Shown here one piece after another: positions 4,635-14,600 of a stretch of 26,099 nt of DNA. Source of the DNA: a virus. The stretch lies in the IMG/VR virus record IMGVR_UViG_3300027754_000376, positions 1 through 26,099 of that record, one strand, 5' to 3'. Within the stretch, counting starts at the first letter, position 1; every line of letters starts with the position of its first letter. The notes under the pieces were generated by a model that had not been told where the DNA came from, made no database searches, and was given only the letters and a program-made list of their open reading frames with translations. The translations under genes were made by a program, and so were the position numbers.

Positions 4635-5858
4635 ATGAGTTCTACAAATTTTGATATGGTGGCTGCCGATGCAATGCTTAAGACCATTTACGACGCCCCA
4701 GGCGTTATGCAAGACCTTTCCTATTCAGATCGTCCTTTCTTCGCTCTTGTAACCAAGAGTGGCGGAATGGGTGGTCAGGGCGTTAAGATTCCACTATCTA
4801 TCGGCACCTCTGCTGGTTACGCCCCAACTGTTGCACAGGCGCAGGCAATTCTTGCTTCACAAACCCTTGAAGCATTCCTTGTTACTCCTGTTGTCCTATT
4901 ATCAGTTGCCCGTATCTCGGGTCTGACCCTAGAAGCATCACTTACCTCAAAAGAAGCGTTTGCCAAAGGTGCCAAACTTGTTATTGACAGCGCCATCAAG
5001 AAACTATCAAACAGCGTCTCAAGCGCCCTATTCCGTGATGGTTCGGGCGTAATTGGTTCAATCGGTACCGAATCCAGCGGCGTTATTACTCTTACCGACC
5101 CAGCGTCAGTTGTACAGTTTGAAGTAAATCAAGCCCTACAGTCTCTTGTTGGTTCAGCTCTACAACCCAACACCGCTTATGTTGTTGGGGTTAATCGTAA
5201 CCTTGGCACCATTTCAATTTCAGCCGCCCTCGGCGGAGTTGCTGCATCTGTAACTGGCTTTACTGTTGGTGGTACTGAATTGCTTGGTTATGGAACGCTA
5301 AATCTTGTTCACAAAGGTTTATCAGCGTGGCTAACCGACGTTTCACTTACAACTCCATTCTTTGGTGTTAACCGCTCAATTGATACCGAACGCCTTGCTG
5401 GTATCCTATATGATGGTTCAGCACTATCAGTTAAAGATGCTCTTGTTAACGCCATCAACCGTGTTGCTCGCGAAGGTGGTACGCCAGATTATGTTATCTG
5501 CAACTATGAAACCTATACTCAGCTTTCACAGGATCTAAATAGCAATGTTATTTATACCTCCCTTGAAGGCGACGGCAAAGTTTCATTCTCAGGCTTTAAG
5601 TTCAATGGCCCAAAGGGCCCAGTAACTGTCCTTGCCGACCGCGACTGCCCAGCTAATACCGCTTATCTCCTACAGATGGATACTTGGTTACTCCTACATG
5701 TAAATTCTGGTGAACCTATCTTCATTGATGACAACAACGGTAAGGGTATGTGGCGTACAGTTGAGAGCTATGACGGCTACGAAATTCGCGTCAAGACCTA
5801 CTCACAGCTTGCTTGCACCGCTCCAGGTTGGAACGCTAAAGTAACCACAAGCGCCTAA
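4635..5858 (+). CDS. Major capsid (coat) protein, HK97-type fold expected
   Basis: The 407-aa product has the traits of a phage coat protein. It has no signal peptide and few Cys (four). An N-terminal helical arm (DMVAADAMLKTIYD) is followed by beta-rich sequence with many small residues (about 40-100). A central region has ERLAGILYDGSALSVKDALVNAI-type helix sequence, then GGTPDYVICNYETYTQL (about 280-300). A late segment, PVTVLADRDCPANTAYLLQMD, resembles the conserved P-domain/A-domain end of HK97-fold coats. It lies after the scaffold, has the best leader of the window, and is followed at once by a strong terminator, all expected for the most abundant virion protein. By hand count 8 of 14 Phe codons are TTC, against 8 of 25 in the portal, in line with high expression. 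No prohead protease gene is present in the window. Confidence 0.88.
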   Translation: MSSTNFDMVAADAMLKTIYDAPGVMQDLSYSDRPFFALVTKSGGMGGQGVKIPLSIGTSAGYAPTVAQAQAILASQTLEAFLVTPVVLLSVARISGLTLEASLTSKEAFAKGAKLVIDSAIKKLSNSVSSALFRDGSGVIGSIGTESSGVITLTDPASVVQFEVNQALQSLVGSALQPNTAYVVGVNRNLGTISISAALGGVAASVTGFTVGGTELLGYGTLNLVHKGLSAWLTDVSLTTPFFGVNRSIDTERLAGILYDGSALSVKDALVNAINRVAREGGTPDYVICNYETYTQLSQDLNSNVIYTSLEGDGKVSFSGFKFNGPKGPVTVLADRDCPANTAYLLQMDTWLLLHVNSGEPIFIDDNNGKGMWRTVESYDGYEIRVKTYSQLACTAPGWNAKVTTSA

Positions 5859-5955: not shown

Positions 5956-6456
5956 ATGGCAGAAATACTAAAAGCAGAAAGTTATACCGCCGTAATGAAA
6001 TCGGCAAAAGAAGAAGTTTATACTCTCTTCGCTAAAATAAATGTAATTGGTGATGGTGGAGAAGTTACGCTTGATTTATCAGAAGGTGCAAGCGTTGGTG
6101 CCTATGAAATAAGGGTAGATGGACTTATATATAGATTAACGCTTATCCCACCAGTAGGATTTAGACAATCTGAACAAGATAATCCTTCTTCGGGTGGATT
6201 GGGTGGTTTTAACGTGTTTTGGAGTTTTCTTGGAGCACCTGCAATTGTATGCAATCTTTCTGAAAGTGCGGGATTAGTTAATGGTGATGCAATCATTACG
6301 CAAGTCATAGCTCTTAACTTTGATGCAGAAAAGCGTCCATATGTTGAGTTTGGTTTCGTAAAGCGTGACGATAGCAATGTTTATAGTGCCGTGGTTCCGC
6401 CAGAAAATTCACAAATTCTTGTTACGTTGCATTATACAACTACAGATAAGAAATAA
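5956..6456 (+). CDS. Putative capsid decoration protein, single domain (166 aa)
   Basis: The sequence suggests a compact beta-rich domain. In order it shows LFAKINVIGDGGEV (about 24-37), EGASVGAYEIRVDGLIYRLTL (43-63), SFLGAPAIVCNL (90-101), YVEFGFVKRDDSN (129-141) and a final strand ILVTLHYTTT (154-163). The same order of segments appears twice in the next gene. Related small beta proteins are widespread next to phage coat genes and are usually taken as capsid decoration or virion surface proteins, though I cannot run a search to prove the match. SD AAGGAA precedes the ATG at 5956. It lies between the coat terminator and the 401-aa gene, 13 bases apart from the latter, so the two form a pair. 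Function is inferred from place and fold-like pattern. Confidence 0.6.
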   Translation: MAEILKAESYTAVMKSAKEEVYTLFAKINVIGDGGEVTLDLSEGASVGAYEIRVDGLIYRLTLIPPVGFRQSEQDNPSSGGLGGFNVFWSFLGAPAIVCNLSESAGLVNGDAIITQVIALNFDAEKRPYVEFGFVKRDDSNVYSAVVPPENSQILVTLHYTTTDKK

Positions 6457-6469
6457 GAGGAATACATAA

Positions 6470-7675
6470 ATGACTAATAAAACAGCAAAGAAAAATAAAA
6501 AAGTATTCCGCCAAGGCGTAGTACAAATCCACGGACGCTTTGTACTTGAAGACGAAGGAACTACTCCTGTATTAATTAAAACAAATGGAGCAAGCCGAGG
6601 TGTACATAGTGTTGTACGAGATGGCGATGCTATTCGCGTATTTCTTAATATGCCAAAAGCTACATTCCTAGGTACGCCAATTGTATCTTATCTAGATGAT
6701 GACGATGCAGCGGGTTCTATCTATCAGTTTATCGTATCTGATGTCGTTAGCACACCAGGTACCTATCCTGGGAATCTAGCCTATTTTGATATCTCAGCAT
6801 TTAATTATGACAACGAACTAACATCATTTCCAGGCACATGCCTTTTTACAGTAAATGTTACAACTGCTGTAGTGCCAAATGGTATGCTTCCAGTTGTGGA
6901 AGACCAAAATGGGCCAATTCCTCCAACTTGGGATGATGCAACTGCCTATGTCTTTGGTGAAAAAGTTGAATTAGACGACAAATATTATGTTGCTCTACAA
7001 GCAAGTACTGACATAGAACCAGGGGTAGCTGATGGTTGGGAAGAATATTGGGAAGAATATTCACTCTTTCCTTATGAATTTGCTGCACGTACTGCAATTG
7101 GGCCTACTGCAATTGTTCATACCCCAAAGGTTGAAAGCGTATCTGTATATGGTCGCTTTATGGGAATACCAGCTGCATGGAGCGATGCCTATACATACGC
7201 GGTAGGAAATTATGTATATATTGGTTTTAAAGTTTATAAGGCAATAGCAGAAAACCTAAATGTAGAACCAGGTGTTGATGTTGGTTGGGAAGCATCTTGG
7301 GAGGAAGCTGTATTGCTGATTTCAGAAAATGCTGAAAGCGAAGGAGTATCTAGCGTTGTACTAAATAACGATGGTCAATATCCAGATCTTCCAACAAATG
7401 TTTATATTGTAACACTAGACCCAGTTTCGCCAATTGTACAATTCCTAGGCGCTCCAACAATTACTCTAATCAGTCGCGATGGCCCTGTAGGAGTTTATTG
7501 GAGAGTTGCAAAGGTATTTTGTGAAGGTGCTAGTGCAACATATGGTACTTCTGCAAATCAAATTGTTTTTGCGTTCTATGATACCGAACCAGTTCCAGAA
7601 ATTAATTTGCTAGAAACTTCAGTAGCTGAAGTAGTTCATTTTACTCTACAATACACTACCAGTAACGTATTCTAA
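6470..7675 (+). CDS. Putative decoration protein: duplicated domain with two carbohydrate-binding-like inserts
   Basis: The 401-aa product looks like two copies of the domain of the preceding gene. Copy A has GRF (22-24), SRGVHSVVRDG (42-52), FLGTP (66-70) and end strand LFTVNVTT (125-132). Copy B has GRF (228-230), SEGVSSVV (290-297), FLGAP (325-329) and end strand HFTLQYTTS (390-398). Two 49-residue modules (150-198 and 233-281) match in register: Trp at 154/237, Tyr at 160/243, Gly at 163/246, Tyr at 173/256, EPG at 183/266, and Trp at 190/273 and 194/277. This Trp...Tyr-x2-Gly...Tyr...Pro-Gly...Trp pattern is that of CBM5/12 chitin-binding-type modules. Module 2 interrupts copy B; module 1 sits between the copies. 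The protein would show glycan-binding modules on the capsid surface. SD GAGGAA precedes the ATG, and a terminator follows the stop. Confidence 0.6.
   Translation: MTNKTAKKNKKVFRQGVVQIHGRFVLEDEGTTPVLIKTNGASRGVHSVVRDGDAIRVFLNMPKATFLGTPIVSYLDDDDAAGSIYQFIVSDVVSTPGTYPGNLAYFDISAFNYDNELTSFPGTCLFTVNVTTAVVPNGMLPVVEDQNGPIPPTWDDATAYVFGEKVELDDKYYVALQASTDIEPGVADGWEEYWEEYSLFPYEFAARTAIGPTAIVHTPKVESVSVYGRFMGIPAAWSDAYTYAVGNYVYIGFKVYKAIAENLNVEPGVDVGWEASWEEAVLLISENAESEGVSSVVLNNDGQYPDLPTNVYIVTLDPVSPIVQFLGAPTITLISRDGPVGVYWRVAKVFCEGASATYGTSANQIVFAFYDTEPVPEINLLETSVAEVVHFTLQYTTSNVF
6917..7063 (+). repeat. CBM5/12-like module 1 (coding repeat)
   Basis: It encodes residues 150-198 of the 401-aa protein, with key residues W154, Y160, G163, Y173, E183-P184-G185, W190 and W194. 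It aligns without gaps to module 2. The two copies are clearly diverged at DNA level, so the duplication is not recent. The chitin-binding assignment is from pattern only. Confidence 0.55.
7166..7312 (+). repeat. CBM5/12-like module 2 (coding repeat)
   Basis: It encodes residues 233-281 of the 401-aa protein, with key residues W237, Y243, G246, Y256, E266-P267-G268, W273 and W277. It lies inside the second decoration-domain copy, between its GRF strand and its SEGVSSVV strand, as expected for a module placed in a surface loop. Confidence 0.55.
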
Positions 7676-7682
7676 GATAGAG

Positions 7683-7709
7683 GGCTAGGACTGCAAACTA
7701 GCCTTTTTT
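7683..7709 (+). terminator. Intrinsic terminator after the 401-aa gene
   Basis: GGCTAG (7683-7688) pairs with CTAGCC (7698-7703), with a 9-base loop and six T at 7704-7709. It starts 7 bases after the stop codon. The next ATG is at 7724, so no promoter fits between; the downstream genes must be reached by read-through or from a promoter inside a gene. Confidence 0.85.
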
Positions 7710-7723
7710 ATAGGAAATGCAGG

Positions 7724-8878
7724 ATGAGCTTACAGGTATATATAACAAGCGATTTGCCATACCACGATGATTATCCTTATGTACAGGGTAATCTAGCTAT
7801 TCCTATTCAAATTGTGGTTTATAACGAAGATGAAGTTAATAGCGTACAATTAAAACAAATATACCTAACCGAAAACGATAGTGCTCTTGGTACAGGTGCT
7901 GCTCTATCATTGGGTATGCCTGTATTTAAATATATTAGCAGCCAGAATCCAACTACAAACAATGTTATACCACCTGATAGCGAGGTAATATATGACGTAC
8001 TCTATATTCCTCAAATAAACGCCCTACAAGCCCCTATTGTTGCTGAAGCAACCCCAACTGCACAATTAGGAAAGAATCGCTACAGCGTTGAATTACGGGC
8101 CATTGTGCAGGTTTATGGAAGCACCGAGATGTATCGTGGCGAGATAGCAAAGTTCTATGTTTATCCTGCCGCAAATGTTAGCTATAATATTGTAACTCCT
8201 GTTAAAGTTTGGAGCCTATACGATAACCAACGTCCTACCAATAACGATAACTTTGATTTTCAGATAATGGTAGAAGAAATATTAGAGAATGGTAATATTG
8301 TAAGTGTTCCACAAGACCAGTTGTATTTTACAACCAGTGCCCCGTCTATATTACAAGTTATTGGCGAAGGCGTTAATGGTGCCACAGAGGGCGAGAATAG
8401 TAAAATAATTGGTGGAGCAGGATGTTGCGTAGTAGGAACTTATAGTCCTACGGTACAAGCCGAAATAAGTGTTCGCAGATGGGGATATACTTTTCCTATA
8501 ATAGGAAGCGTTAAAATAGCTGTTGTAAATGCACTGCCAGTATCATTAGCTATAAGCCCACCATTACTTAATTTTACACGCGATCCAGCTTCTGTAAATC
8601 GCGTAAATTATGCAGCACGATTAACAAAAAGCAATGGTAGTGTTGAAGATGTCAGCAATAGCGAGGATATAGTATGGCTGGCAAATGGACAAGAAAGTAG
8701 TGCAGTAGGATATTTTATTCCAGGAGCTAGTATCAATCGTGGTAGATTATACGTAGAAGATGATTATAATCAGCTAAATCCATATTCGGCAGTACCAGCA
8801 GTTATAACAGCAACCTATTCGCCAGGATATAATACATTAACAGGTCAGGCGAATATCTTTGTAAGAAAAACAGTCTAA
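7724..8878 (+). CDS. Ig-like (BIG2-type) virion surface protein (384 aa)
   Basis: I recognise no exact family, but the sequence suggests beta-sandwich domains. The N-terminal part (about 20-150) has alternating strands. Two bacterial Ig-like stretches follow. The first (about 153-268) carries DQLYFTTSAPSILQV, which fits the BIG2 signature of a Ser/Thr-rich strand before a Val. The second (about 271-382) carries PVSLAISPP, DIVWLANGQ and ending strands AVITATYSP and QANIFVRK. NSKIIGGAGCCVVG (225-238) recurs in altered form in the next protein. There is no signal peptide or membrane segment, so secretion by itself is unlikely. Placed in the block behind the coat gene, it is best read as a head fibre or outer capsid protein; Ig-like domains on phage capsids are known to bind surface glycans. 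SD AGGAA at 7712-7716. Confidence 0.6.
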   Translation: MSLQVYITSDLPYHDDYPYVQGNLAIPIQIVVYNEDEVNSVQLKQIYLTENDSALGTGAALSLGMPVFKYISSQNPTTNNVIPPDSEVIYDVLYIPQINALQAPIVAEATPTAQLGKNRYSVELRAIVQVYGSTEMYRGEIAKFYVYPAANVSYNIVTPVKVWSLYDNQRPTNNDNFDFQIMVEEILENGNIVSVPQDQLYFTTSAPSILQVIGEGVNGATEGENSKIIGGAGCCVVGTYSPTVQAEISVRRWGYTFPIIGSVKIAVVNALPVSLAISPPLLNFTRDPASVNRVNYAARLTKSNGSVEDVSNSEDIVWLANGQESSAVGYFIPGASINRGRLYVEDDYNQLNPYSAVPAVITATYSPGYNTLTGQANIFVRKTV

Positions 8879-11616: not shown

Positions 11617-14600
11617 TGCGAAATCGTAAAATACCAAATATACGCTTAAACGAACCACTTAAAGCTGTTGATGTTAACCGTGCTCTTGATAATATCATCA
11701 ACACAATAAATCCTTTTGTTGACGAGGCTACTGTAGCTATCAATGAAGGCGGTTCACCTGTACAAGATATAATTGGTGGTGTTGATATTGGCGTTACAAG
11801 CACCGCAGGAGGCGTTTATACCGTTTCCTTTACAGGAAGTCCAAGCGGTGTTAGCATCGTCCCAGGAACAGGTATAGGCGTTGTAGAGGCCCCTGTTGGA
11901 ACCTTTACGATCACCAACACGCTGCCCGAAGATACAAACGTCGTTGCTGGTACTGGAATCTCTATTGTAGAGGCACCAGCTGGTACCTTTACTGTTACCA
12001 ATAGCGATCCTGCAAGTGCTGTCAACGTTGTTGCCAGTACAGGTATATCTGTAAGCGAAAGCCCAACTGGCACATTTACAGTTACAAATACACTTCCTGA
12101 CCAAACAGTTGTATTAACAAATGGCACTGGTATTTCTAATACTGGCACCTATCCTAATTTTACAATTACCAATACACTTCCTGACCAAACAGTTGTATTA
12201 ACTCCTGGAACTGGCATTTCAACAAGCGGAACTTATCCAAACTTTACAATTACCAACACCGACCCTGCAAGTGCCATAGATGTAACAGCAGGAACAGGTA
12301 TTTCTGTTGTAGAGGCTCCCACAGGAACCTTTGCAGTTACCAACACGCTACCTGACCAAACAGTTGTATTAACCAATGGTACTGGCATAAGTAATACTGG
12401 CACTTATCCTAATTTTACTGTAACCAATACACTTCCTGACCAAACAGTTGTATTAACAAATGGTACTGGCATAAGTAATACTGGCACTTATCCTAATTTT
12501 ACTGTAACCAATACACTTCCTGACCAAACAGTTGTATTAACCAATGGTACTGGCATAAGTAATACTGGCACTTATCCAAACTTTACTGTAACCAATACAT
12601 TGCCAGATCAAACGGTTGTATTAACAAATGGAACTGGAATTTCAACAACTGGCACTTATCCAAACTTTACTATTACCAACACCGACCCTGCAAGTGCCAT
12701 AGATGTAACGGCTGGCACTGCAATCTCTGTTGTTGAAAGCCCAACTGGAACATTTGCAGTTACAAATACAGCTCCAGACCAAACAGTTGTCTTAACAAAC
12801 GGCACAGGCATAAGCAATACTGGTACCTATCCAAACTTTACTGTTACAAACACTCTGCCAGACCAAACAGTTGTATTAACAAATGGCACTGGTATTTCTA
12901 ATACTGGCACTTATCCTAATTTTACTGTTACAAATACAGCTCCAGACCAAACAGTTGTATTAACAAACGGCACAGGTATTACCGTAACTGGCACATATCC
13001 AAACTTTACAATAACAAATAGCAGTCCTGGTTCTTCTTTATTAGCTTCTAATAATGCTTGGACGGGAACAAATACATTTACTAATGCTGCTTTACCACTT
13101 AAAGCAACCAATACAACTGCTCTAAACTCGGGTGTCCTATCAACCTATGGATTTCATGCTCTAAATGCAAGCGGATATGGTGTTGCGCTTGGTGGAACCA
13201 CAGGCACAGGTCGTCTTGAAGTAATATCGCCAGCGTTAGGCTTTTCTGGCAATTTATACATGAATGTCCAGGGTGGTGGCGATCTTTATCTACCAAACGT
13301 CAATAGCCAACTAATTGTTGGAAGCACTACAAGCCCAAGTTCTACTGCTAAAGTTGCAGTAAATGCAGGTCTTTCCACTACAAATGCTTTTTATGCTAAT
13401 ATTGGAAGCCTACGACTTGACAATGGCGATGCAACAGTTTTAGGAACAATTACAGGAAATACTGTTTCAGCCACTACCTATACTGGTCTCCCAGTAAGTT
13501 CTATCTTAGCAGGAACAGGTATTAACGTAGGCAACGTTGCAGGGGCAGTAACTGTTACTAACTCTTTACCTGACCAAACAGTTGTATTAACCAATGGTAC
13601 TGGCATAAGTAATACTGGTACCTATCCAAACTTTACTGTTACAAATACGGCTCCAGACCAAACAGTTGTCTTAACAAACGGCACAGGCATATCAGTTACA
13701 GGCACGTATCCAAACTTCACTATTACCAACACCGATCCCGCATCAGGTGTTAATATCACTGGTGGCACAGGCGTAACCGTAACTGAACCTACAACAAATA
13801 ACTTTTCTGTAGCAATCGGGCAAGCCGTAGGAACTACAAGCGACGTAATATTTAATAAAACTACTGCGACAACAAGCGTATTAACTCCAACTCTTGATAC
13901 AGCAACTGCGGTTGCTCTAAATATTGGCACGACAAATGCAAATTCTGTTTCAGTAGGTCGTGCAGGTATCACAAGCACCATACTAGGAACGGCGAACATA
14001 AACACCGTAGTTCCCAGCGTTGGTTTAAATGTCACGCCAGCTTCGGTAGCGGGTGTTGGTGTATCAACGACCATAAATGGTGGTGCTAGCTCAGGTGCCG
14101 CTGGCGGAACCGTATCTATCTCAGGCGGTGCTGGTAATACTACTGCGGGTGGCGTTACTATTACTGGTGGCGCAGGTACAGACGGTGGGCCCATTACGGT
14201 CACCGCAGGACAAGGTGGTTTAAGTCCTGGTGGAGCGCTAACATTAAAGAGCGGTTTATCAACTGCCAATAACGGTGGCGAAGTCATTGTGCAGGCTAAC
14301 ACAGGCAATGCCGTTGGTTTCCGTGGTGGTCACGTTCAAATAGCCGCTGGAAACTCAACCTCTGGCACAGCAGGAAATGTTTATGTAGAAGGCGGCGATG
14401 CCGCTACTGACGGCACTATCAATATTGGTACAGGCGTAACACCATCAGGAGCAAGTATAATTGGTGCTACAAGTGCCGTAACTATCGGAAGAAGCACATT
14501 TAATACAACGGTAAATGGTGGCGTAACTACTCCTGTTGTTTTAGGAACTTATTTATATGCCGAAGGGCCATCATCAAACATTAATATTACAAATACATCT

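Follow-up and report, generated by a model that had tools for sequence, protein, structure and literature searches.

A 401-aa protein encoded close behind the major capsid gene of a 26,099-base virus record carries two diverged copies of one domain together with two modules predicted to adopt a CBM5/12 fold, and one of these modules interrupts the second domain copy. On balance, we favour the view that this protein is an accessory part of the head in a podovirus-like phage and displays its modules outward for contact with glycans.

Layout of the 401-aa protein and its gene neighbourhood

The window, meaning the whole 26,099-base stretch that we analysed, has a podovirus-like order of head genes: terminase, portal, scaffold-like, SU10-type major capsid protein, a 166-aa, the 401-aa, a 384-aa and a 459-aa protein, adaptor, and nozzle-like protein, where the names scaffold, adaptor, and nozzle were assigned from position and weak matches. 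The 401-aa gene is the second gene 3' of the coat-protein gene, starts 13 bases past the end of its neighbour, and is intact with an ATG start. We refer to its repeated domain as the host domain. The features discussed here are listed below.

4635..5858, + strand: major capsid protein, SU10_MCP-like (Pfam PF17236, 28.6 bits with a cut-off of 24.1; PHROG major head protein)
5956..6456, + strand: 166-aa single-domain paralogue of the host domain, immediately 3' of the capsid gene (independent profile, E 3.5e-8)
6470..7675, + strand: 401-aa protein with two coat-adjacent (decoration-type) domain copies and two CBM5/12-like modules
6470..6874, + strand: host domain copy 1, residues 1-135 (window-free profile matches residues 1-78; hhalign; AlphaFold2 strands within 16-132)
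6917..7063, + strand: CBM5/12-like module 1, residues 150-198, in the linker between host-domain copies (Pfam, AlphaFold2, Foldseek)
7014..7057, + strand: DNA repeat common to both modules, 84% identical to its partner at 7263-7306
7088..7162, + strand: first strand of host domain copy 2, residues 207-231 (aligns with the N-termini of single-domain relatives in L049; AlphaFold2 strand 223-231)
7166..7312, + strand: CBM5/12-like module 2, residues 233-281, after the first strand of copy 2 (identity to module 1; phrog_18593; flanks align with insert-free relatives)
7313..7672, + strand: remainder of host domain copy 2, residues 282-401 (31% identity over 119 aa to a 140-aa relative in L039, E 2e-6)
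7679..7711, + strand: terminator-like hairpin and U run 3' of the 401-aa gene (folding -14.1 kcal/mol, z -2.78)
7724..8878, + strand: 384-aa neighbour, homologous to an L044/L047 protein with a ConA-lectin-like (Laminin_G_3) insertion

The hairpin, which is absent from the list produced by a consensus terminator scan, may mark the end of a transcript that starts at the capsid gene. Elsewhere in the window, a fibre-like 1155-aa ORF contains 84-nt tandem repeats (12075-13010 and 13572-13726) that encode a 28-aa repeat (DQTVVLTNGTGISNTGTYPNFTITNT...).

The two modules align without a gap, as the initial annotation of this DNA had reported, with 21 of 49 positions identical and a local score of 113, where 5000 shuffles reached at most 53. 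Because this alignment lies far above the shuffles and 44 nt of the coding DNA are still 84% identical, we regard the two modules as products of a duplication. The phrog_18593 profile matches two stretches of the protein. The host-domain copies, of about 135 aa each, are diverged (score 72 versus a shuffle maximum of 57), and a profile built without window sequences gave two domain matches, at residues 1-78 and 287-401, the second of which is weak when taken alone (i-E 0.7). The duplicated host domain described earlier was borne out by both measures.

Alignment with single-domain relatives places the beginning of copy 2 near residue 207 and module 2 between the first strand of that copy and the next conserved block. 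The C-terminal end of the protein, TTSNVF, resembles that of the relatives. In a full-length AlphaFold2 model that is poor overall, strands 223-231 and 293-299 flank module 2. The loop insertion proposed in the initial annotation can be assigned to module 2, which occupies the first loop of copy 2 and is the only interruption of the host domain; module 1 lies in the inter-domain linker. PDB matches of the full-length model were given no weight, since it was built from six sequences and reached a pLDDT of only 54.3. Searches of IMG/VR and cultured phages found no close relatives of the whole protein, and none were found with the terminase as query. A bacterial-genome search matched one actinobacterial MAG contig, which does not establish the host.

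The post-capsid domain family and its insertions

The profile made without window sequences selected exactly two of the 77 window ORFs, 6470-7675 (E 8.4e-8) and 5956-6456 (E 3.5e-8). Members of this family were found near the capsid gene in 61 of 68 surveyed loci and were the first listed ORF after it in 55, although the loci include near-identical ones and the profile already contained most of the matched proteins or their close relatives. Comparison by hhalign of the near family (single-domain relatives plus two window sequences, copy 1 among them) with 27 post-capsid proteins of wider relatives gave a probability of 97.9 and an E-value of 3.9e-13. Among relatives whose capsid region is sequenced, the closest have a capsid protein 60-64% identical to that of the window. 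Two of these related loci (L038/L039) carry single-domain genes in a tandem of three (140, 142, and 150 aa), and two others (L041/L044) carry just one, of 163 aa, in the same place; neither arrangement includes a CBM.

Two further observations concern related contigs. L045 has homologues of the window's terminase, portal, and scaffold genes but no recognisable capsid gene past the scaffold, which suggests a chimera, a genome end, or a replaced capsid gene. A tail adaptor homologue in L039 (10631-11626) has about 80 extra residues, at about 160-240, that are missing from the window adaptor.

The host family had no match at useful significance in the PDB and only isolated weak matches, none of them clear, in PHROGs and Pfam, and a search of 50,697 cultured-phage records with two of its members found nothing. 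Likeness in sequence to a known decoration protein was not found in any of these four sources. The 401-aa gene does lie where decoration-type genes lie, in the head cluster by the major capsid gene. Since no clear match was found, the term 'decoration protein' reflects gene position only. The earlier description of a capsid decoration type therefore agrees with the conserved place behind the major capsid gene but is confirmed by neither a solved structure nor a named family.

Relatives of the cluster carry other insertions. A 429-aa post-capsid protein (L020:4563-5849, on the same contig as L113) contains a Pfam Ice_binding domain (E 5e-38) between a C-terminal part that matches L067-type proteins at E 6e-23 and an N-terminus that matches them more weakly (E 0.002). 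In the L002 group, a domain of about 50 aa is inserted further along the post-capsid protein. The homologue of the 384-aa window protein in L044 (9303-11366) has about 330 extra residues between the positions equivalent to 88 and 90, and this region matches Laminin_G_3, which is ConA-lectin-like (E 9.9e-11). The coat-adjacent cluster thus varies through gain or loss of domains of a surface-binding type. Fifty related contigs, many of them fragments, gave no CBM5/12 match, and the module profile matched none of 10 near relatives, so the modules look like an addition by the window phage within the sampled group.

We tentatively consider a broader reading, in which the post-capsid family as a whole serves the shell as a general platform for display: its loops would take up surface-binding modules of unrelated kinds, and related phages would exchange these. 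Examples would be the paired CBM5/12-like modules here, the ice-binding-like domain of L020/L113, and the domain of about 50 aa in the L002 group, joined by the ConA-lectin-like domain that L044 has in a neighbouring head-cluster gene. The family also provides naturally occurring insertion sites within a single domain. If this reading is correct, shell-borne adhesion would be tuned to habitat through loop insertion, and a family with CBM5/12-like, ice-binding-like, and other loop modules would show such adhesion to be modular and diverse. We regard the variation by inserted domains among relatives, which extends past the original two-module observation, as the most interesting result of the analysis.

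Fold and ligand-contact residues of the modules

A CBM5/12 profile search and structure prediction, both proposed in the initial annotation, gave results for module 1. The Pfam CBM_5_12 profile matched the module at 17.1 bits in a single-sequence search, which is below its cut-off of 26.2. AlphaFold2, given an alignment of module 1 and ten other modules with no chitinase sequences among them, returned a three-stranded fold with a pLDDT of 96.7. Foldseek ranked the chitin-binding domains of the bacterial chitinases chitinase C and chitinase 60 best in the PDB, with ChiC chitinase as the top match (TMq 0.81, rmsd 1.5) and ChiA1 and phage tail-fibre modules further down the list; matches had probabilities of 0.99-1.00 and TMq values of 0.63-0.81, and the E-values were modest, as expected at 50 residues. 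A profile of the two modules had as its best PDB match 1ed7, the chitin-binding domain of chitinase A1 (E 0.09). When phage relatives were added, profiles that still included both window modules matched chitinase A1 and other chitin-active PDB proteins, with E-values as low as 1e-4 to 1e-6 for chitin-binding domains; phage tail-fibre modules were matched more weakly. The confident three-strand model and the best PDB matches to chitin-binding domains make the predicted CBM5/12 fold computationally well supported, despite the sub-cut-off Pfam score.

In ChiA1, a Trp before EP has a chitin-binding role. Chitin contact in CBM5 is made by a consecutive pair of aromatics (Y-W or W-W) plus a third one, and the core contains a Tyr and a Trp (PMC8449059). 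By alignment with the CBM5/12 pattern, the window modules retain the core Tyr (Y160/Y243) and the core Trp (W194/W277, or W190/W273, as the exact equivalence of the second Trp is our reading of the alignment). The consecutive pair is missing from both modules, which have ALQ and AIA at that place, and the ChiA1-type Trp is replaced by Ile and Val. The identification as chitin-binding type-3 modules thus holds for the fold but not for the chitin-contact residues.

Relatives of the modules were collected from IMG/VR with a DNA pattern for the motif EPGVxxGWE, which gave 17 loci. About 13 of them have plausible modules, and one and the same protein accounts for five of these. Retrieved relatives of this phage subtype likewise lack the CBM5 pair and the ChiA1-type Trp, and they share EPGVxxGWExxW with the window modules. 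EPGVxxGWE is invariant in all 11 aligned sequences, although the nine non-window ones were picked by this motif and the invariance is partly built in. W190/W273 probably lie near the third CBM5 contact. The modules appear to be of a phage-type 'EPGVxxGWE' kind rather than demonstrated chitin binders. A further non-fibre carrier is L130:4434-4982, which combines a sub-threshold match to Mu gp36 (connector) with an EPGVxxGWE module.

The missing chitin-contact aromatics, in both modules and in the retrieved relatives, could also mean that the modules serve as passive structural spacers, lengthening or stiffening the protein and keeping the CBM5/12 fold while binding no sugar. Similar modules also occur in proteins for which an adhesive role is less evident, namely a nozzle protein (Piluca) and a connector resembling Mu gp36 (L130), and these point the same way. 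However, a spacer needs no motif such as EPGVxxGWE, with its Trp near the third contact position and its conservation in 11 sequences (nine selected by motif), and the loss of one aromatic pair leaves room for another ligand face. We therefore consider this explanation unlikely.

Also improbable, in our judgement, is that the protein belongs to the neck or tail, or anchors fibres, and that its modules bind receptors at the tail. The best-known relatives of the modules are in tail fibres (PDB 8kec, 9rkv, and 8fqc; BFVD matches), and one host-domain relative weakly matches a tail-tube PHROG (E 0.0013). Yet in most relatives the host-domain family lies immediately 3' of the capsid gene, apart from the adaptor and nozzle genes, and it occurs in up to three tandem copies (L039). 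Direct binding of chitin or mucin, by which particles would stick to arthropod or fungal surfaces or to mucus, has a fold shared with chitin-binding domains in its favour, but we judge it very improbable, as the aromatic pair and the Trp before EP are missing whereas the CBM5/12 domains compared in PMC8449059 all have exposed aromatics and all bind chitin.

Proposed function and comparison with known systems

Under the reading that we favour, that of a head accessory protein, the two small beta-rich copies of the host domain would bind the outer face of the shell, and the modules would point outward, module 1 from the linker and module 2 from the loop of copy 2. From this position on the capsid exterior, they could attach through numerous weak and repeated contacts to a surface glycan, be it of the host envelope, of a biofilm, or an environmental polysaccharide, and sugar binding of this kind would benefit adsorption by concentrating particles near hosts ahead of tail engagement. 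The initial annotation had included chitin among the targets; with the CBM5 pair and the ChiA1-type Trp missing, chitin is an unlikely ligand. The ligand would probably not be crystalline chitin but may be a different glycan.

The adhesive domains known from phage capsids have mainly Ig-like folds. The decoration proteins Hoc, pb10, gp12, and gp8.5 enhance surface attachment via carbohydrates (PMC7602432), and Douge has glycan-binding domains on capsid and tail proteins (PMC13033339); we count these precedents for shell-borne adhesion in favour of an adhesive role. The window protein resembles Hoc (T4), pb10 (T5), gp17 (N4), and gp8.5 (phi29) in its proposed role as a surface-displayed attachment domain (PMC7602432). 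It differs in that Hoc, pb10, and gp17 have Ig-like folds, whereas sequence searches linked its host domain to no decoration protein of solved structure. The literature searched for CBM5/12 or ice-binding domains on capsids yielded no direct precedent; Peru-2 was considered as one and rejected, as its CBM is in the tailspike. Ma-LMM01 gp089 (21.5 bits) and Alistipes phage AS73P1 gp53 (18.9 bits) are similar in having a weak CBM_5_12 match in a gene near head genes, but these carriers are unrelated to the window protein, and AS73P1 gp53 may be a neck protein.

With CBM5/CBM12 (chitin-binding type 3; PF02839), the window modules share a small three-strand fold of about 45-50 aa and a W...Y..G..V...Y core, including the core Tyr and the C-terminal Trp. 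They differ from that family in scoring under the Pfam cut-off, in lacking the exposed Y-W/W-W pair and the ChiA1-type Trp, and in their carrier, which is an enzyme there and a coat-adjacent phage protein here. Closest in fold and profile are the CBM5/12-like modules of cyanophage A-1(L), Agrobacterium phages 7-7-1 and Milano, and Tunturi_5 gp29. Because such modules are common in phage virion proteins, the suggestion that a CBM5/12 pair is uncommon in a coat-adjacent gene survives only for the location, and because most of them are in tail fibres, their presence alone is no proof of capsid function. The phage modules named above are carried by tail fibres or baseplate receptor-binding parts, whereas the window carrier is encoded beside the capsid gene and, unlike the tail-fibre carriers, has a domain in common with single-domain post-capsid proteins.
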